Below are positions 22,677-32,408 of a DNA stretch of 47,597 nt, piece after piece. How positions within the stretch are numbered: the first letter of the stretch is position 1; every line of letters starts with the position of its first letter. The DNA lies in assembly GCA_013298595.1 (NCBI GenBank), contig JAAFIG010000037.1, positions 1 to 47,597 on the forward strand, written 5' to 3'. A program made the position numbers and the translations under genes. The notes under the pieces were generated by a model, which saw only the letters and a list, made by a program, of their open reading frames with translations, ran no database searches and was not told the DNA's origin. This DNA comes from Deinococcales bacterium. GTDB taxonomy: Bacteria; Deinococcota; Deinococci; Deinococcales; JAAFIG01.

Positions 22677-23948
22677 TTAGGGTTCTAGCGCTAACGTAAC
22701 TGCTGTAAAACTTTCGATAAAGACTCGATTAAAGTCATCTTTGACAATAAAACCACGTGTACCACTCGAGCCTGTGTTGCTTTGGATTTGGTCGGCAAGC
22801 AATAGGGTTAAATTGGTGGTCGCACCGCTATCGTAGCGAATACTGAGGTTGCTGGTATCCTCAACTCGGCGCAAATGATTGACTGGTGATAAGGTCAGGA
22901 TACGAAGTACCATTGCATCTTTGATTGTATCCACAGCGGGAGCAACAACTGGGCTGGCAGCATTTTGTATAGTATGGGCTTCACGGATTCGTTGCACACC
23001 TCTGTATGCCAGAATAATGGCTCGAGCATTGCTGGCTTGGTTTAATTGAAATTGATTTTGATTACTTTGGTTATTATTGACATATTTGGAGAAAATCCAA
23101 ACACTCTTAATTGCAGCAGCATTTTCTACCAGTGGATATCCTGCCTCGAGCAACCAACCACTTGGTGGCGTAACTGTGTTACTGGCAGTAGCATTGATGC
23201 AAAGAATGGCGATCAGTACATCTTGTTCTTGTACCCCGACAGGTGTGGCGAGATTGAGGCTCGAGATTGCGTTGGCATCAATTACAGGGCTGCTCGAGAC
23301 AAAACTGACTGCGGTGCTTGGATTCGGGGCAGCTTCAACTGTTAACGTTTGGAGAGGGCTGGTTGTGGTGTTGCCTGCTGCATCGATGGCAATCGCTTTG
23401 TACTTAAAACTTCCGCTATTGGTAAACCGCTTTGTGAGGGTAAACGGAGCTGCACTCCATTGCTGAATGATTGTGTCATTCTCGAGTAATTGCACTTGCG
23501 TAACACTTTTGTTATCAGTGGCTTCAACACGAATTTGCAGATCTTGGGGCGCGATGATATTGGTACGGTCAAGGGTAAGAGTCACTCGCGGAGCTTCAAG
23601 GTCTGGTGCAGCCAACACTTCAAGATTTTTACTTGGGCTGAGAATCGTTTTGCCTACAACTTCGGTGCGTGCCACATAGCTATACATTCCTGCTTGGTCG
23701 AGCAGGCGATTGTGTGTGTAAGGCGGTATTTCCCAGCGATGAATGACTTTTTGATTCTCGAGTAATTCGGTAACCAGTGGCTTTGCGCTGTTGGTACTGA
23801 CTTCAATGCGAATTGTGTTCGGTGCAGTGAGTTGTGTCGCTCCGAGTTGCAACCCCAAAGTGATAGGGATTGGCGGTTCAACAGGCAATTCTCGAGTTGG
23901 TTGGCACGCAACAAGCACAAACATCAGTGCTCGTAAAGCATTTTTCAC
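22677..23948 (-). CDS. Ig-domain lipoprotein
   Basis: Surface or periplasmic lipoprotein of 423 aa. Lipobox MFVLVAC places the lipidated Cys at residue 15. Two bacterial Ig-like repeats follow (ELLENQKVIHRWEIPPYTHN; QLLENDTIIQQWSAAPFTLT), then a C-terminal beta-sandwich with TPPSGWLLEAGYPL and AYRGVQRI, seen in many secreted proteins. The GTG start overlaps the regulator gene's TGA by four bases (GTGA), so translation is coupled. Probable adhesion or sensing role, inferred only from architecture. Confidence 0.85.
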   Translation of the reverse strand: MKNALRALMFVLVACQPTRELPVEPPIPITLGLQLGATQLTAPNTIRIEVSTNSAKPLVTELLENQKVIHRWEIPPYTHNRLLDQAGMYSYVARTEVVGKTILSPSKNLEVLAAPDLEAPRVTLTLDRTNIIAPQDLQIRVEATDNKSVTQVQLLENDTIIQQWSAAPFTLTKRFTNSGSFKYKAIAIDAAGNTTTSPLQTLTVEAAPNPSTAVSFVSSSPVIDANAISSLNLATPVGVQEQDVLIAILCINATASNTVTPPSGWLLEAGYPLVENAAAIKSVWIFSKYVNNNQSNQNQFQLNQASNARAIILAYRGVQRIREAHTIQNAASPVVAPAVDTIKDAMVLRILTLSPVNHLRRVEDTSNLSIRYDSGATTNLTLLLADQIQSNTGSSGTRGFIVKDDFNRVFIESFTAVTLALEP

Positions 23949-25852
23949 GATGCTGCCTCGAGTCGGTAAGCCTCTACGGTATGCCCAGAAGTTGTTGTTG
24001 CATAGGCGGTTAATTCGACTTCAACCACACACATGGCTTGACTGCTGATATGAAGCGCACACTTAGCTGGCACATGAATCCAGTATTCAAACGCTCCAAC
24101 GGATGGAAGCACCGACTGCATGGCAAATTGTGTGGCTGCTTTTATTGGTTGAAGTTGAATCGCTTCACCAGTGCCGTACACTCCAATGGCTAAACCAATG
24201 GCTTGTCCACTGATACCAAAACCAAAAGGCTCTTTGTTATGAATTCTGCCGCTGATGCGTAACAAAGTCGCTTGCGATAGCTTAGCGAAAACCAACCCAC
24301 TTTTTGAGTTTGGTACACTTTCGACCACGATTATTCGCCCTGCTTGAAAGGTGAGTGCTGTGCCATATTTTTTGGCTTCAAGCAAAGCAATTTCTTGGTT
24401 TTGATGGCAATAAGAAAATTGTTGTGGTTGCTCGAGTGGTAATTCAAATGGCGTGTGGGTATTGGCACATTGCCGAGCTTGCGCCCTGCGTTCAATTTCT
24501 GGTGTAGTTGTACAAGAACTTGAACGCCAAGCACAGAGTAAGGCTTGTTGCAATGATGTGAGTTTTGGAAGCCACTGTTGCCAATCGAGATTCGGATTTG
24601 CTTGGTAACTGTGGTACAACGATAAAATCGGTTGGTTAGTTTGACGACTGTAAAAATCAGCGAGTCTTTGGTGCATTCGCAGTCGTCTGCCTGGTTGGAG
24701 CGCTTCCATCAGCAACCTTCGCACCGATTCGTATTTAAATTGCCAAGTATCGGTATAGACAAACCAACCTCGTCGTTCAAATTCTTCAACATGCACATCT
24801 GCACCTAAGAATTTGCAAACTTCATCGGATAAGCCTGTTGGACAAACCGCTAAATTCTCGAGCATAATCCGCGATTCCAAGGGTAAAAAACGCAACTCGA
24901 GTTGCAATTGATTTAAAATTTGGGGTGCACCAAGGTCGTTGGAGTCGCTATCTAAGCATTCTTGGATTTGTCCAGGCAAGCCTTGACTGATCAAAAAAAT
25001 ATGGGCTGCTTGGTCAAATGAAAGAGTGGCAAGTAAATGCCTGCGAGCATCCGACCAGACCAATGGTGGCAATCGAACTTTGAGCAATTGTTCAGGGGAT
25101 AATCTTTGCTCTAACTCGAGTATTAAGCGAGGTGTTTCACCAAAGGCACTGCGTGCCAAAACCACAACACCAACAAGTTTTTGCACCATGGTTTCAGCAT
25201 CCAGTGTTGCTATGTTTTTAAAAAATTGGAGAACAAATTCGCCACCATTGCTTTGCCCTTCAACAAATAGAAAATTGAGTTTACGGGCTAAATCTCGAGC
25301 AAAAAATGTGCGTTGACTACCGGGTAAACCTTCAAGTACTAGCACGCTTGGAACACGGATTTTTTGCAAAATCTCGAGCAGCAGAGTATCACGGCTTGGT
25401 GCGATTTTACTGTTTGTATCGGTGTTTAGGGTTTGTTTACGCCATTCAAGCCAATCCTCAAATTGTTCACTAACTCGTGAAAGCCGCTCGAGTCCAAGCA
25501 GTGGCATACCTGATTGTGGTTCTTCAATAATTTTTATTTGCTCGGGTAAGGTAAGCCAATTTTTTTGATTAGTAAAAGCATCGATGCCTACTGTGCTCAA
25601 ATTTTTACGCAAATAATGCAGTTCTACACGCAGATTACCTTGAGGGTCGTTATTTTCCCAGAGTAATTCTGCTAATTTTTGCCGATCAACTGTTTTTTCA
25701 AAAGCCAAATAGTACAACAGTGCAAGGCTTTTTTTACGCAGTGGCAAGACTTTTTCTTGATACTCGAGCCGAGCTTCGCCCCATAATCGCAAACCTAACA
25801 TGGTTAGGTTTGTACTTTCCGTATCGGCGCTTAGTAGGCGGTAATTGCCCAT
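23945..25852 (-). CDS. SARP-like transcriptional regulator with degenerate P-loop
   Basis: Regulator of 635 aa. The N-terminus (about residues 15-115) resembles a SARP/OmpR winged helix: LPLRKKSLALLYYLAFEKTV, RQKLAELLWENNDPQGNLRV, ELHYLRKNLS. A central STAND/AAA-like domain begins VLVLEGLPGSQRTFFARDLA, where the Walker A lysine is Arg. The C-terminal part is beta-rich with GFGISGQAIGLAIGVYGTGE and may sense a ligand. The ATG at 25852 has AAGGAG eight bases upstream; an ORF extends to 25921 without a better site. It is divergent from the fibre-like cluster and likely regulates it. Confidence 0.82.
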   Translation of the reverse strand: MGNYRLLSADTESTNLTMLGLRLWGEARLEYQEKVLPLRKKSLALLYYLAFEKTVDRQKLAELLWENNDPQGNLRVELHYLRKNLSTVGIDAFTNQKNWLTLPEQIKIIEEPQSGMPLLGLERLSRVSEQFEDWLEWRKQTLNTDTNSKIAPSRDTLLLEILQKIRVPSVLVLEGLPGSQRTFFARDLARKLNFLFVEGQSNGGEFVLQFFKNIATLDAETMVQKLVGVVVLARSAFGETPRLILELEQRLSPEQLLKVRLPPLVWSDARRHLLATLSFDQAAHIFLISQGLPGQIQECLDSDSNDLGAPQILNQLQLELRFLPLESRIMLENLAVCPTGLSDEVCKFLGADVHVEEFERRGWFVYTDTWQFKYESVRRLLMEALQPGRRLRMHQRLADFYSRQTNQPILSLYHSYQANPNLDWQQWLPKLTSLQQALLCAWRSSSCTTTPEIERRAQARQCANTHTPFELPLEQPQQFSYCHQNQEIALLEAKKYGTALTFQAGRIIVVESVPNSKSGLVFAKLSQATLLRISGRIHNKEPFGFGISGQAIGLAIGVYGTGEAIQLQPIKAATQFAMQSVLPSVGAFEYWIHVPAKCALHISSQAMCVVEVELTAYATTTSGHTVEAYRLEAAS

Positions 25853-26234
25853 AAAACTCCTTCTCTGAGACATTTTTTGATGATTGAAAAAAAATCTATG
25901 AAATTTCTCTCTTTCGATCATAGTCTATTTTTAACAAATTGCCTAGATAGACGCGAGGATGCTTGTCCTAGACTACAAAAACTCGTAAAAATATGACCTG
26001 ATTCACCTCATTTATGCAAGCGTGAATTCAAACGTTAAGTGTCATGAATTTTGTAAAGCTTTAAAAGCAAAAAATCTTAGTAATAACAAACTACACTCTT
26101 AATAACAGCTTAAATGCACTTTACGCAACTTTCACGCTTGCGTTGGTAACCTTTTATCAGTCGCCAGAACACACACGTGTTCAGCGCCAGTATTCGAGAA
26201 TCTCGAGTACGTATAAGCACTAAGGAGGTATTTT
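25853..26234. promoter_or_regulatory. Divergent regulatory region with paired inverted repeats
   Basis: No gene was found in these 382 bases. CAAGCGTGAA (26017-26026) and its exact reverse complement TTCACGCTTG (26131-26140) lie 104 bases apart; the second is embedded in ACGCAA-9-TTGCGT (26123-26143). GAACAC-ACAC-GTGTTC is a further short dyad at about 26168-26183. AAGGAGGT at 26222-26229 is the ribosome site of the next gene. These are candidate binding sites for the adjacent SARP-like regulator. No consensus promoter could be fixed. Confidence 0.45.
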
Positions 26235-27134
26235 ATGAAAGTACGGACGTTAGTCAGTTTAGCCACCACAATCATGCTCGGCGCTGCTGCTTTTGCACAA
26301 GGTGACCCAACTGTGATTGGTCCAACAACTGGCGGCGGCGCAGACGCCTATGCCAAAGGTGATAACAGCGCCACAGTCAGTCAACTCTTGACACTGCGGC
26401 TACCAAAAGCCACTGCCTTGCACCTCGATGTGACCGATTTGCTGTTTGATTTAACAGGCTTAAACGGTACCAACTGGGCGTCTCGAGCCGCTTCTGGAGC
26501 CAATGTGGATTTTGCAAGCCAAATGGTTTGTGTTTACGGCTTACAAGATACAGACAGTATTTCACAACTTGGCGATAACTTCTACAACCAAAAGCAATAC
26601 TTGCCACTCGGCACCAGTTACTCACCACAAGCCTGGCCCAATGTTAAAATCAATGGTGGTCCAATTGTCAATACATACCCACCAATCCGCGTTGGTGCCA
26701 ACGGCGAATTAATCCAAGGTTCAAAAAATTACTTTGTTTGTTACCGTACCTTTAAGTTACAAAAATTCAGCAACGGCGCAAGCTGGGATTTAACAGTGCA
26801 ACGCACCGATGATGTTACCCGTCCTCGTGCCTTGAAGCACATTTACATCCAAGATAACCCATGCGATACCTTTGGTGCTGCAACAGGTTTCTACAAACTC
26901 GGAGCTTCCGAAGCCCAAGGACAACCACTGCACTTGGTACCAAAAAACTTGAATTTTGGACCAACAGGTAGCCGCACCCCAACCAACCGCAACAACTGTG
27001 GTTACAAGAGCTGGTTAGACGATCTGATCATTGTGGCTTTGCCCGTAGATGGCGAACTCAACGGCGATAACACCGCTAACTTGCAATACACCCTAACCAC
27101 AACCGCTTGGGAACCAGCTACAACCACACGTTAA
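26235..27134 (+). CDS. Exported Cys-containing subunit-like protein, first gene of the fibre-like cluster
   Basis: Secreted protein of 299 aa with signal peptide VRTLVSLATTIMLGAAAFAQ. The mature part is rich in Asn, Thr and Gly with a predicted beta character and four cysteines (QMVCVYGLQ, NYFVCYRTF, NPCDTFG, NNCGYKS) that could form two disulfides. It has the strongest ribosome site of the cluster, AAGGAGGT, and is followed by a terminator-like hairpin before the next gene, as expected for a highly expressed structural subunit. No known pilin domain recognised. It contains a single CTCGAG. Confidence 0.8.
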   Translation: MKVRTLVSLATTIMLGAAAFAQGDPTVIGPTTGGGADAYAKGDNSATVSQLLTLRLPKATALHLDVTDLLFDLTGLNGTNWASRAASGANVDFASQMVCVYGLQDTDSISQLGDNFYNQKQYLPLGTSYSPQAWPNVKINGGPIVNTYPPIRVGANGELIQGSKNYFVCYRTFKLQKFSNGASWDLTVQRTDDVTRPRALKHIYIQDNPCDTFGAATGFYKLGASEAQGQPLHLVPKNLNFGPTGSRTPTNRNNCGYKSWLDDLIIVALPVDGELNGDNTANLQYTLTTTAWEPATTTR

Positions 27135-27142
27135 ATTTTGCA

Positions 27143-27176
27143 ACATCGGGGGCTTGGTTACTCGAGTCCCCGATGT
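27143..27176 (+). terminator. Intercistronic hairpin, probable partial terminator
   Basis: ACATCGGGGGCT pairs with AGTCCCCGATGT (one G-U) around a 10-nt loop containing half of a CTCGAG. The tail GTATTTTC is only moderately U-rich. It probably limits read-through from the subunit gene to the assembly genes or protects the subunit mRNA. Confidence 0.6.
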
Positions 27177-27266
27177 GTATTTTCAAAAACCCAATTTGCT
27201 AGCCCGAAAAAAGTTTAGAAAAAAATTATTTTACAACTCGAGAAATCTCAGTTAAAGGAGTGACTT

Positions 27267-28073
27267 ATGAAATACATACTGACATTGCTACTGACGGTAC
27301 TTTGCACTTCTTCTGTTTTTGCCCAAACTTCGCTAGGTGTTGAACCACCCGTGGCATTACACGATGTTGTACCAGGGCAAACCGTTACTTTCCAATTAAA
27401 AATTGGTAATCCTAGCCCAAAACCACTGCGAATACGGGTCAGTTTAGGCGATTGGAATTACAATCAATTTGGTGAACTGCTATATTTTGCCGTTGGCAAA
27501 GGACCTTCAAGCGCTTCTATTTGGACAAAAATCTCATCTTCGGTGCTCGAGATTGCAGGGCAAGATGTGGTGAGTTTGCGTTACACCGTGCAAATCCCCA
27601 CCGATGCCAAAGCAGGCAGCCATTGGGGTATGGTGTTTTTTAATGCCGAAAGCAGTGCCGCCGAACCGGGCATTGTCAATGCTGCGATGAGTGTTCGTGT
27701 GGCTCACACATTTTATGTCAATGTCGCCCCTGTTAAATCCAGTGGTAAAATCACAGGAATTTTTGGTAAACCCGGACAGAACAGTAAAAGCAATTATATT
27801 TTTGCAGTGCAGTACCAAAACACAGGTAATATCGCACAGATTCTCGAGGGTCGAATCGAAATTCGTGATAGTAGCGGCAAATTGGTTTCGGCTGCTATTT
27901 TTCGTCGCCAAGTGATTTTGCCTGGTGCACTGCGGATTTTACAAACCACCTTAAATGGTCCGTTACCCGCAGGTGATTACACCGCTTTGGTGGTGCTGAA
28001 TTACGGCGATAAATCTCGAGATGTGGCTGGTGAGTACAACTTCACCTTGAAAGCACCCTTATCTGAGCCTTAA
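27267..28073 (+). CDS. Exported chaperone-like Ig-fold protein (DUF916/PapD-like)
   Basis: Periplasmic protein of 268 aa with signal peptide KYILTLLLTVLCTSSVFAQ. The first domain reads VEPPVALHDVVPGQTVTFQL then KIGNPSPKPLRIRVSLGDWN, ASIWTKISSSVLEIAGQDVV and IPTDAKAGSHWGMVFFNA, matching DUF916-type or pilus-chaperone-like Ig domains. A second Ig-like domain follows (AVQYQNTGNIAQILEGRIEI). AAAGGAGTGA precedes the ATG. Its position between an exported subunit and a barrel protein suggests subunit chaperoning, but the classical PapD Arg/Lys pair cannot be assigned. Confidence 0.75.
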   Translation: MKYILTLLLTVLCTSSVFAQTSLGVEPPVALHDVVPGQTVTFQLKIGNPSPKPLRIRVSLGDWNYNQFGELLYFAVGKGPSSASIWTKISSSVLEIAGQDVVSLRYTVQIPTDAKAGSHWGMVFFNAESSAAEPGIVNAAMSVRVAHTFYVNVAPVKSSGKITGIFGKPGQNSKSNYIFAVQYQNTGNIAQILEGRIEIRDSSGKLVSAAIFRRQVILPGALRILQTTLNGPLPAGDYTALVVLNYGDKSRDVAGEYNFTLKAPLSEP

Positions 28074-28084
28074 AGGAGTTGACC

Positions 28085-28594
28085 ATGAAAAAACCAAGTC
28101 TAATTTTGTTGTTGATTGGTGCTTTGCTCTGCACAGTACAAGCCCAATCGACATGGTCTACCCAAGTGCTACTGCAGAGTGCTTTAGGTAAAATTGAGGC
28201 ACGAACCCCAAGCAATAGTGTGTTGTTTACTTTTGAAAAAAACTATCCACCTGCTCAGTTCCCAGCCACATACATCGCTACCACACCGATCAATGGAGTA
28301 TTGCCATTGCAAGTGCAATCCACTGTTAGTGGCACTTGGAATGTCTTGCTCGAGATTGCCGATTTACGCGATGGCAATGGACGTTTACTGGTACCCGCTC
28401 GGCAAATCATGGTTCGTGTCAACAATGGTTTGTGGTTGCGTGGCAACGGCGCTGCCCAAATAATTTATACCGACCGAGGCGCAACCCGCACTTGGAAAGA
28501 CATCAAGCTCGAGTTTGCCATTGAATTACTCGGTAACGAAATCGCTGGTGAGTACGCAGTTCAAACCTACTTTAGTGCTCTGGCTTTACCGTGA
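28085..28594 (+). CDS. Small exported beta-rich protein, minor-subunit candidate
   Basis: Protein of 169 aa with signal peptide KKPSLILLLIGALLCTVQAQ. The mature part alternates hydrophobic and polar residues (PLQVQSTVSGTWNVLLEIAD; IKLEFAIELLGNEIAGEYAV). It starts 11 bases after the chaperone-like gene. AAGGAG, overlapping the stop of that gene, is spaced well for the ATG at 28085 rather than the TTG at 28079. Length and context suit a minor or tip subunit; no family recognised. Confidence 0.72.
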   Translation: MKKPSLILLLIGALLCTVQAQSTWSTQVLLQSALGKIEARTPSNSVLFTFEKNYPPAQFPATYIATTPINGVLPLQVQSTVSGTWNVLLEIADLRDGNGRLLVPARQIMVRVNNGLWLRGNGAAQIIYTDRGATRTWKDIKLEFAIELLGNEIAGEYAVQTYFSALALP

Positions 28595-31500
28595 ATGCTT
28601 ATGCCACTTCTTCTTGCCTTGTTGATCACACTGGCTTTCTCGAGCACTTTACCTGCCGAAAAGCCAGTTGGTCTATTGGCAGCACAAAGCGCTAATTTGG
28701 TGTTACAGGCAAATGATGCACCATTGGCTCGCCCTGGTGATTATGTGACTTTGGCATTTGTGGCAAAAGGTTCTGGTGAATTTCAATTTTTGCTTAACGC
28801 GCCCGATGGCTGGGAACCACTTTCAAATAACAAAACGATCAGTATCGAAGGACAAAGAACCATTGGTTTTACAGTGCGAATTCCGCTCGATGCCTTAGCC
28901 GATCAGATAGCAAAATTTGTTGTCACCGCTTCGCAAAATAATAAAACCATCGCCTCTACTAACCATGCCATTCGGGTCTTAGCCGTTGGTGGTGTACGCT
29001 TACGCGCCCCAGACCAAGTCGGCACCAACTTAGGCGACCCCGCCCAATTTAATTTATTTGTCACCAATACAGGTAACAAAACCGACACGATTCGCCTAAC
29101 TGCCCAAAAATCTGTTTGGCAAGTACAAATCGAACCTGCTTCCTTTGCTCTCGAGGTTGGTGAAACCCGTAGTGTTCAAGTGCGTTTGCTGCCAGAAGGG
29201 CAACTCTCGAGTGGCTATATTTATGTTTTACGGGTGCGTGGCGAATCGAGTCTCGAGGCGGAGTACAGCGAATCACAAGTGCTTTTTCGTTTTGGTAGTG
29301 TCAGCGAGCGCAGCAACGACGACATTTTACAAGTTCAAGCCAATCTGCAAGTCAGTGCCACACCTGCCCTGACCTTACCTGTGGCAACCCCACCGATTTT
29401 TGCTTTTAATATCGGCATTGTACCCGCCTTGAGTGGCGAATTATCCGATTATGTCAGCGGTAACTTAGACGCAAGCGGCAATGGTTTTCGTTGGGATAGC
29501 AGCTCTGGGTTTCAATTTCCCAATGGCTTAACCCTTGGTTTTAAAGCTGCCTTATGGGATACAGCTGTGCGTTTCTCGAGCGAAGAAATTGCTTGGAGTA
29601 TCAATTACGCCCTAAAAGACTGGCTGCTCAGTGGTGGTGTTGGCTACCGCAACACATCAGGCAACCAAGGTTTACAATTTGCCGCCAGCCTCAACAGTTC
29701 CCAAGACTGGTTGCGTTTGCAACTCTACGCCAATTTTAGTCAAACCTCGAGTATCACCAACCAAACTCGAGCCGATACCTTAGGAGCCAACTACACTGTA
29801 CCACTCGAGCCAGGTTTAGATTTGAATCTGGGTGCTGATCTGACAGGTACAGGCGCGAATGGAGGGTACAGCCTCGGGCTTTCGTTACAACAATCCTTGC
29901 GTTGGCAACGTCCGTTGTTTGAAATTTATCAGACCTTAACGGCTGTGCCTTTTTCGGGTCAGTACGGACTGAGTTTATTTGCTGGCTTACGCGACACCGA
30001 ACCGTTTGCTTTGCGTGCCAATTCTGCTTTAAGTCTTACAGCCAGCGATCCGCTGAATTTTACGTGGCGTAACAGTGCGGTGGCTAGTCTGAGTATCCTC
30101 GAGGGATTGGGTATTTCGGTCAGTGCAGGCTACCAAATTGCCACCACACCACAATACGCAATCACTTGGAATATCGGTGCTCTCGCCACCTATAACTTAC
30201 GTCTAGCAGGGTCATTATTTGCCAGTCTGAACGCAGGGTACGCTTACGCTGGCACGATTGTTGGCAGCAACAATACCAGCGCTACTATCAGCCTTGGTGG
30301 GCAAATCAGCAGTGGTAATTTTTCGGTTGCTGCCAGTGGTGGCTTCGTTGGCATCACCAGCAACCAAGGTAACAGCGAAACTGTTACTGCCAACGCCCAA
30401 CTCAGTTATGTCTTCTCGAGCAACACCGCTTTATTTTCGACGTACAGCTATAAATTAGTCCTGACCGATGAGGCTCGAGAAAATCATGCCTTAACGTTTG
30501 GTTGGGCTCAAGTTTGGAGTGCCAATATCAGCTCGAGTTTAACCTATACCCGCACTTTAGTAGCAGATTTTGTGCAACCGAATTTAAATGGCGACGCACT
30601 TGGTATCGCGCTGACCTTTAATAATGTGATTAGTCAAGGCGTGAATCTTGGTATAGGCTGGCAATGGTCGGCACCGAGTGGTTCGATTTTTAATGCTGCG
30701 GTACCAAGTCAGCACCGCTTTAGTTTAACGATAGGTTTTAATACCAACTTGCTATTTGATACCCCTGCTTTTATTACCGATGTGTTTGGTGGCAGACGCA
30801 GTGGTGAAATCAGTGGTGTGGCATTCGTCGACGACAATCTCAATGGACAACGCGATTCTGGCGAAACCAGTTTAGCGGGTGTGACACTGCGTTTAGGGCG
30901 CAGTGTCAGCACCGTAACCAACAGCGATGGCAGTTATCGTTTACGAGCGCCTGTTGGCAATTACCAACTCGATTTTCCAGCTGGGCTAGAAGCTGGTATG
31001 GATTTAATCGCCGAACGCGAAGTCAAAATTGTGCTGAATCAAAGCCAACGCCGCGATTTACCATTTGCGCCTGTGGTCAGTTTAGAAGTCAGTTTATACG
31101 ACGACAGCAACAACAATGGGCAACGCGATGCTGACGAAGATGGCATTCCCTACGCGGGTATTCGCATCGAAGGTCCGATCAGCAAAGAAGCCAAAGTGGA
31201 TGGAGAAGGTCGAGTCACCGTTTCTGGTTTAGTCACAGGGGTCTACACCGTTGTTACCGATAGCTCGAGATTACCCGATGGTTACCGCATGACCACCGCA
31301 TTACAACGCATTGAAATAACCACCCCGAACACACCCGAAGCCATCAGTATTGGTGCTGCACTGCCACCTCGAGTACGTGAAACCACCTTTGAAGCTGGGA
31401 ATTTATCGGTTTTTGCCGATGTGCAAGATAACATCTTGCCAGCTGGTGCGGATTTACGTATCGAAGCCCTGACCCAAGGCAACATTACGAAAGTCACTGC

Positions 31501-31933
31501 TCAAGTCGGACAAACCAGCATCGAATTAACTGTCTCGGCAGATGGACGGTACACTGGTGTTTTACGTATTCCCACTTCGACAGCCATTGGCGATCAGATT
31601 GTGATTGTCACAGCGTTTAGTGGTAACCAAAAAAGTCAATTTGAAGTCCCGATCACGGTGGTACAAGGCGAATTATTTGTCGCTTCGGTTTACCAAGCGC
31701 TGATTAACAGCAATCTCGAGTTTAACTTACGCACCTTGTACCAAATCAAAAATCAGGAACTCGAGCTGGTCTTTCCCGATGGGCAACGAATCAAATTGGA
31801 ATCTACTGATGGTTACAACTGGGTTGGGCGTTGGCGCACCCCTGCCACTTCTGGTCGTATCGAAGCTCGTCTCGAGGTTAAAGGTGTGCTGCTGGGCAAA
31901 GTACAATTTTTGATTCTGGTTCCGGGTTCGTAA
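28595..31933 (+). CDS. Large usher-like outer-membrane barrel protein with SdrD-B-like domains
   Basis: Protein of 1112 aa. A signal peptide (MLMPLLLALLITLAFSSTLP) is followed by two Ig/NEW3-like domains (about 30-235), then a long region, about 265-735, of short amphipathic beta-strands rich in Gly, Asn and aromatic residues, as in a 20-plus-strand barrel. Next come an SdrD-B/CNA-B-like domain (GEISGVAFVDDNLNGQRDSG, about 737-820) and a second (DDSNNNGQRDADEDG), then two C-terminal beta domains. The order resembles an usher with plug and C-terminal domains, but sequence similarity to FimD/CsuD is not evident. The start ATG directly follows the previous stop. Confidence 0.75.
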   Translation: MLMPLLLALLITLAFSSTLPAEKPVGLLAAQSANLVLQANDAPLARPGDYVTLAFVAKGSGEFQFLLNAPDGWEPLSNNKTISIEGQRTIGFTVRIPLDALADQIAKFVVTASQNNKTIASTNHAIRVLAVGGVRLRAPDQVGTNLGDPAQFNLFVTNTGNKTDTIRLTAQKSVWQVQIEPASFALEVGETRSVQVRLLPEGQLSSGYIYVLRVRGESSLEAEYSESQVLFRFGSVSERSNDDILQVQANLQVSATPALTLPVATPPIFAFNIGIVPALSGELSDYVSGNLDASGNGFRWDSSSGFQFPNGLTLGFKAALWDTAVRFSSEEIAWSINYALKDWLLSGGVGYRNTSGNQGLQFAASLNSSQDWLRLQLYANFSQTSSITNQTRADTLGANYTVPLEPGLDLNLGADLTGTGANGGYSLGLSLQQSLRWQRPLFEIYQTLTAVPFSGQYGLSLFAGLRDTEPFALRANSALSLTASDPLNFTWRNSAVASLSILEGLGISVSAGYQIATTPQYAITWNIGALATYNLRLAGSLFASLNAGYAYAGTIVGSNNTSATISLGGQISSGNFSVAASGGFVGITSNQGNSETVTANAQLSYVFSSNTALFSTYSYKLVLTDEARENHALTFGWAQVWSANISSSLTYTRTLVADFVQPNLNGDALGIALTFNNVISQGVNLGIGWQWSAPSGSIFNAAVPSQHRFSLTIGFNTNLLFDTPAFITDVFGGRRSGEISGVAFVDDNLNGQRDSGETSLAGVTLRLGRSVSTVTNSDGSYRLRAPVGNYQLDFPAGLEAGMDLIAEREVKIVLNQSQRRDLPFAPVVSLEVSLYDDSNNNGQRDADEDGIPYAGIRIEGPISKEAKVDGEGRVTVSGLVTGVYTVVTDSSRLPDGYRMTTALQRIEITTPNTPEAISIGAALPPRVRETTFEAGNLSVFADVQDNILPAGADLRIEALTQGNITKVTAQVGQTSIELTVSADGRYTGVLRIPTSTAIGDQIVIVTAFSGNQKSQFEVPITVVQGELFVASVYQALINSNLEFNLRTLYQIKNQELELVFPDGQRIKLESTDGYNWVGRWRTPATSGRIEARLEVKGVLLGKVQFLILVPGS

Positions 31934-31988
31934 ACAAAGGTTTCTTGGTAAGCAATATGGCTTTCGCCCTCTCAAATAGGAGGTTTTT

Positions 31989-32408
31989 ATGAAAAAGGTT
32001 TTTGTCGCTATCGGTTTGATGCTGCTTTTTGTTGCTTGTCCGCAAAGCAACGTTGGTATCAGTAAGGCACGGGTGCTCTCGAGTATTTCCAATCCTAATT
32101 TGGAAACGTGTCCGATTATTCGCACGCAATACATTGCTATCAAAGGCGAGAATTTTGGTGTGGCGGCTGATTGGGCAAATGGCACAAATAAAGTTATTTT
32201 CTTTGACAATGTGGTTGTCCCCAGCGCAGATGTGGAATTAACCCAAGCAGGCAATCCTGCAACCCTGTTTGTTAAAGTACCAAGTGCCGCCCAGAGTGGT
32301 CCGTTGGTTGTCGAAGTTGCAGGTGTGACCAGTGCACCAATCAACGTGATTATTACCGATTTTGTACCCAGCAACGCGGTTGGCGAATGTATATACCCTG
32401 CAAATTAA
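31989..32408 (+). CDS. IPT/TIG-domain lipoprotein
   Basis: Lipoprotein of 139 aa; lipobox MLLFVAC. The mature part is one IPT/TIG Ig-like domain: YIAIKGENFGVAADW, NKVIFFDNVVVPSADVELTQ, FVKVPSAAQSGPLVVEVAG. AGGAGG lies six to seven bases before the ATG. It is the last gene of the cluster and followed by a strong hairpin. It may anchor or cap the assembled structure. Confidence 0.78.
   Translation: MKKVFVAIGLMLLFVACPQSNVGISKARVLSSISNPNLETCPIIRTQYIAIKGENFGVAADWANGTNKVIFFDNVVVPSADVELTQAGNPATLFVKVPSAAQSGPLVVEVAGVTSAPINVIITDFVPSNAVGECIYPAN

Follow-up and report, generated by a model that had tools for sequence, protein, structure and literature searches.

A putative chaperone-usher-like export and assembly locus in Deinococcota, with a tandem-Ig chaperone related to WxLIP

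Chaperone-usher systems of the classical, alternative (ECP, CFA/I) and archaic (Csu) classes are built from a short list of parts: one or more subunits, a periplasmic chaperone of two Ig-like domains, and a large outer-membrane barrel flanked by N- and C-terminal beta domains. In known ushers the barrel has 24 strands with a plug domain inserted between them, and in pap operons a stem-loop follows the first subunit gene. The WxL/WxLIP clusters of Lactobacillales (DUF916-DUF3324 with small and large WxL proteins) also use a tandem-Ig protein, as one partner to two surface proteins per cluster, in cells with neither barrel nor outer membrane; this partner, WxLIP, carries a C-terminal transmembrane helix. 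An AlphaFold2 prediction described in PMC10599100 has a strand of DUF916 inserting into WxL, which is a donor-strand-like arrangement. Deinococcota have an outer membrane, yet in the 111 genomes of the phylum that we searched, the source genome of this locus included, the Pfam usher PF00577 matched nothing (an E. coli control was positive); SCPU matched in a single genome, with the source genome negative, and Pfam WxL (PF13731) in none. Here we describe a locus from this phylum that we lean towards reading as a phylum-specific chaperone-usher-like export and assembly system, analogous to the known classes and not a member of them, whose parts look closer to a Gram-positive surface system than to any of the known fimbrial families. 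In the literature on WxL/WxLIP, and on chaperone-usher systems and filaments in Thermus and Deinococcus, we did not find the locus described.

The locus lies in a stretch of 47,597 nucleotides, analysed whole and called the window throughout (Table 1). A sequence-only reading had marked out five consecutive exported products between 26235 and 32408 as a possible fibre assembly locus, and all five open reading frames do lie there on the forward strand, each product opening with a signal-peptide-like stretch as read from sequence; in the last of them (31989-32408) LFVAC forms a lipobox-like stretch with its cysteine. The close packing ascribed to the assembly genes is equally real: 5 nt separate the chaperone stop from the small-protein gene if the latter starts at TTG 28079, or 11 nt from the likely start, ATG 28085, with its better-placed AAAGGAG, and 0 nt lie between that gene and the barrel gene. 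A further 55 nt lead to the lipoprotein gene. The first gene (subunit, 26235) is preceded by TAAGGAGGT. The hairpin said to divide it from the rest was recovered by folding and has a counterpart at the same place in all 20 loci folded, with z <= -2.8 against mononucleotide shuffles in 19 of them and -1.7 in the other (L032).

Table 1. Features of the locus, with window coordinates and the evidence for each
Feature	Coordinates	Strand	Evidence
Divergent 658-aa gene, probable regulator	23945..25921	-	weak Trans_reg_C, E=0.0096
Major subunit-like exported protein, 299 aa	26235..27134	+	ORF; subunit profile
Intercistronic stem-loop between subunit and chaperone genes	27139..27179	+	RNA folding
Chaperone-like protein, 268 aa: signal peptide and two Ig-like domains	27267..28073	+	profiles; model
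Candidate donor (G1-like) strand of chaperone, residues 139-153	27681..27725	+	32 sequences; strand in model; role inferred
Small exported protein, 171 aa from TTG, subunit homologue	28079..28594	+	hhalign 94%
Usher-like outer-membrane barrel protein, 1112 aa	28595..31933	+	AlphaFold2, Foldseek, VIA-align
Two N-terminal Ig-like domains of barrel protein	28700..29293	+	AlphaFold2; hhalign to chaperone family 93%
Barrel region, 28 strands of 8 or more residues	29330..30760	+	AlphaFold2 model
Most conserved motif, TP...FGGR, directly past last barrel strand	30764..30796	+	alignment conservation
C-terminal beta domains, including two SdrD_B/CarboxypepD_reg-like domains	30800..31918	+	domain search; model
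IPT/TIG-like lipoprotein, 139 aa, accessory	31989..32408	+	TIG E=0.052

The window has a further peculiarity. CTCGAG is a highly iterated palindrome here, with 263 copies in 47.6 kb against the 4.5 expected from dinucleotide shuffles (26202-26207, 27161-27166 and 29150-29155 are examples), and the next commonest palindromic hexamer reaches 35 copies. Its density is 4.1-4.6 per kb in three loci of the same family (L032, L003, L067) and 2.3 per kb in L033.

The chaperone-like protein had been described as an Ig-fold, DUF916/PapD-like chaperone. Two Ig-like domains are indeed predicted by its model, and both the DUF916 (WxLIP) kinship and the PapD-family fold stand, but its closest relative in sequence is the Gram-positive WxLIP and not PapD. 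Profile-profile comparison (hhalign), with signal peptides trimmed and eight null profiles (one reversed, seven column-shuffled), aligned the chaperone family with WxLIP over 230 columns spanning both domains (97.0%, score 77.8, null maximum 15.6) and more weakly with EcpB (48.1%, score 33.8, null maximum 17.3), a match that outlived trimming; against eight K-12 chaperones it returned noise (0.4%). An apparent match to PapD at 78%, obtained with signal peptides left in, collapsed to that 0.4% once they were trimmed and was dropped. Pfam WxLIP_PGBD was matched by 14 of 19 chaperone members (best 9e-4) and by the window protein at 0.014 (15.8 bits, under the 27.3 cut-off), and a search of the PDB with the chaperone profile reached EfmWxLIP1 at E=0.027. 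By profile, then, the chaperone is a relative of WxLIP, and the earlier remark that nothing here shows clear identity to fimbrial families needs amending to that extent; it survives in that no protein of the locus matches PF00577.

The chaperone model, part of a read-through model of subunit and chaperone together, lies mostly above pLDDT 90. Foldseek ranked first a WxLIP bound to a long WxL (9i25_C, 3e-10), with PapD-family chaperones from 2e-8 and V. cholerae RbmA in between, and VIA-align gave Z 13.8 for WxLIP and Z 11.3-13.2 for the PapD family, with YadV, EcpB, SfaE, SafB, Caf1M, FimC and CsuC at Z 12-13. The predicted fold thus sits about equally near to WxLIP and to PapD-family chaperones, in a tie or nearly so, and the PapD-fold chaperone that marks the chaperone-usher pathway is present here at fold level only. 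In contrast to WxLIP, the model has no C-terminal transmembrane helix, and the window protein stops after its second Ig domain. The candidate G1-like strand alternates hydrophobic and polar residues and includes Arg144 (29 of 32 sequences) and Tyr150 (32 of 32).

The subunits are less forthcoming. As the sequence-only reading had it, the 299-aa protein contains cysteines, four of them conserved in the main subunit group (99, 169, 210 and 255). Its model opens with a low-confidence N-terminal extension of about 23 residues, conserved but without a clear alternating hydrophobic run, which argues against its copying the classical donor strand. Beyond this extension, an alternating A-x-V-x-x-x-I-x-L-x-L strand occupies ORF residues 46-56, and confidence is low again over residues 60-95, a segment that opens with a conserved ALHLD...FDL motif and could, at a guess, be where a partner strand is missing from the model. 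The read-through model (pTM 0.46), of mixed confidence in its subunit part, gives no reliable view of the contact with the chaperone. The third product, formerly just a small exported protein, is better regarded as a second subunit-like protein: profile comparison with the subunit gave 94.0% (score 52.5, null maximum 15.2), which indicates homology, and its HMM matches L048:3403-4143 at 1.8e-9. Neither protein has an hhalign profile match to FimA or EcpA, and neither Pfam SCPU (PF05229) nor Pfam WxL matched any of 19 subunits and 19 small proteins. The subunit C-terminus aligned with WxL over 26 columns (score 27.8, null maximum 15.1, probability 10.7%), which is not significant alone. Searches of the PDB with single proteins (phmmer) gave nothing useful; LRRTM, the only PDB match of the subunit profile (E=0.014), and Pfam AHD, matched by 9 of the 19 subunits (best 0.0048), were rejected as chance, and the NCBIfam matches, all far under cut-off, were set aside.

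For the 1112-aa protein the sequence-only reading had proposed an usher-like order of N-terminal domains, long barrel and C-terminal domains, and this is the order that AlphaFold2 predicts from 37 aligned sequences (mean pLDDT 87.2, pTM 0.51; ORF numbering is mature plus 23): beta domains at mature residues 13-210, a large beta-barrel whose 28 strands, each at least 8 residues long, lie between 223 and 699, and further beta domains up to 1085. The absence of a barrel would have counted against that reading, and the model does predict one. The loops of the modelled barrel are very short, and the longest gap between strands is 16 residues, with no plug domain inserted. The SdrD-B-like domains of that reading are real (E=8.7e-13); its assignment of one of them as a plug is only a guess, because no plug is inserted in the barrel. 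In Foldseek searches of the PDB, large ciliary Ig-repeat proteins rank above ushers, the first barrel is FimD (3rfz_B, E=1e-13), followed by more FimD and PapC chains, and the best TonB receptor stands at 3e-8; the usher chains align loosely (TM to target about 0.3, rmsd about 19). VIA-align prefers MtrB of the Mtr electron conduit (6r2q_B, Z 18.0, rmsd 6.8, 407 aligned), ahead of porins and TonB receptors at Z 15-16.7, with no usher in its best 50 rows, which is not evidence that the barrel differs from ushers. MtrB differs in function, and it has neither such N- and C-terminal Ig-like domains nor chaperone or subunit genes. A comparison of the barrel profile with six K-12 ushers/FimD revealed no sequence relation (hhalign 2.3%). 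As a prediction, then, a large barrel flanked by beta domains is well supported, and the models support an usher-like architecture, but homology to FimD, PapC or other ushers is not supported. The N-terminal Ig-like domains match the chaperone family at 93.3% by hhalign and are possibly related to it, although generic Ig similarity may be what is seen.

Relatives of these genes recur across the phylum. Some part of the 1112-aa protein was matched in 43 of the 111 genomes, the chaperone profile in 57 and the subunit profile in 31, and comparison of the lists showed all 31 subunit-positive genomes to be positive for chaperone and barrel gene as well. Among 84,980 species, each represented by one genome, a scan with patterns from the subunit alignment confirmed 12 loci among 68 pattern stretches, all of them in Deinococcota (six named Thermus species and six MAGs); since the scan demands exact patterns, this count is a lower bound. 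An initial contig scan with one protein had produced 33 pattern matches and zero relatives.

Linkage was assessed in 62 loci (the window, L032-L068, L117-L120 and L139-L158; E up to 1e-5). Widespread occurrence of the genes apart from one another would speak against a common system, and it was not observed: 58 loci contain the chaperone, and 56 of these have the usher-like gene alongside, the two exceptions being L147 and L157, on contigs 6.8 and 5.2 kb long. Of the 58, 34 comprise the window plus those loci that were chosen through usher matches, so that linkage is biased there. The other 24 were chosen by chaperone alone, comprising 20 genome places (part of the chaperone-profile places without a nearby usher match in the 1112-aa search) and four of five Deinococcus plasmid matches; an usher-like gene was adjacent in 18 of the 20 and present in all four plasmid loci. 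The full order subunit-chaperone-small-usher on one strand was found in 28 of 62 loci, and in several further loci the usher-like gene points towards that of the chaperone. The proposed five-gene order accordingly extends to other Deinococcota in its first four members, whereas the IPT lipoprotein, present in 14 of 62 loci, is accessory. Homologues of the divergent gene, their relatedness judged by all-against-all BLAST among eight of them, occupy the same divergent position ahead of the subunit gene in 21 of the 62 loci.

The four genes also lie in order on plasmids of Deinococcus psychrotolerans, D. sp. D7000 and D. sp. NW-56, every one annotated 'hypothetical protein', and plasmid 2 of D. 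deserti has a diverged pair of chaperone and usher-like genes; when the more distant chaperone of Thermus type was searched for on plasmids, there was no match. The diverged D. deserti chaperone (L120:6905-7675) is annotated as a FimB/Mfa2 family fimbrial subunit, probably a misassignment. L048, L061 and L062 have two or three subunit-like genes in addition to the small-protein gene. They represent a second locus, paralogous to the first, in which three subunit-like genes accompany the chaperone, the small protein, the barrel gene and the same divergent regulator. Other variants include a subunit split into two frames (L047), near-identical loci in two genomes (L034 and L065) and a chaperone in two overlapping frames (L033:5744-6599), either a frameshift or an error of assembly. 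In four Thermus-type loci the barrel gene and the IPT lipoprotein are separated by an additional lipoprotein-like gene of ~390 aa (L043:10034-11200, L039:10066-11250, L042:5751-6920, L045:5401-6564); the one tested (L043) has no Pfam match.

Kinship between the chaperone and WxLIP over both domains, together with the weak 26-column match of the subunit C-terminus, could be taken to mean that the locus is the diderm counterpart of the WxL complex, in which a WxLIP-like protein and two subunits would remain non-polymeric, the barrel would be an outer-membrane anchor or exporter, and there would be no fibre. We think this unlikely, given that paralogous loci have multiple subunits and Gram-positive clusters have no barrel; nor is the locus a WxL cluster as such, because Pfam WxL matches in none of the 111 genomes, nor in the subunits themselves, and the chaperone is without the transmembrane helix.

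That the locus might instead belong to one of the known chaperone-usher classes, archaic or alternative, and merely have diverged very far, we regard as highly improbable. A barrel of 28 predicted strands rather than 24, with no plug inserted, and subunits without a profile match to FimA or EcpA set it apart, and a 'diverged archaic usher' sits poorly with PF00577 in none and SCPU in one of the 111 genomes. Such a view could draw on the weak chaperone-EcpB profile match and on the archaic systems that PMC4654587 places in Deinococcus-Thermus. We do not assign the locus to a known class, because PF00577 and SCPU are wanting in it and plug insertion in its model. Scarcely any credence attaches to the view that the barrel is a transporter or porin of the outer membrane, served by accessory Ig-like proteins and having nothing to do with subunit export: very short barrel loops, and the porins and TonB receptors that follow MtrB in VIA-align, speak for it, but against it stand the strict linkage with genes for a tandem-Ig chaperone and subunit-like proteins, the large N- and C-terminal beta domains, and an usher as the first barrel in Foldseek.

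If, as we prefer, the locus encodes an export and assembly system analogous to the chaperone-usher pathway, the 268-aa tandem-Ig protein would be a WxLIP-family chaperone, soluble in the periplasm, holding the 299-aa major subunit and a 171-aa minor (tip or base) subunit and presumably binding or capping them by donor strand. The N-terminal Ig-like domains of the 1112-aa barrel would take in the chaperone-subunit complexes, its lumen would let folded subunits through to the surface, and the SdrD_B domains that follow the barrel are candidates for its gate or plug. Outside, the subunits would assemble, probably into a fibre; both fibre formation and donor-strand exchange we infer. The stem-loop, in a position parallel to that of pap operons, may give an excess of the major subunit, and the divergent gene may control the locus.

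More tentatively, and at rather less than even confidence, the locus may represent an independent, phylum-wide chaperone-usher-like class in which a WxLIP-type chaperone feeds an unrelated barrel of ~28 strands, so that the WxL system and the assembly of diderm fimbriae would both branch from a single, older strategy based on tandem-Ig chaperones. If true, this mode of building surface structures would be wider and older than the fimbrial families, many 'hypothetical' genes in Thermus and Deinococcus would acquire a function, and WxLIP itself may act as a chaperone in Gram-positive bacteria too.
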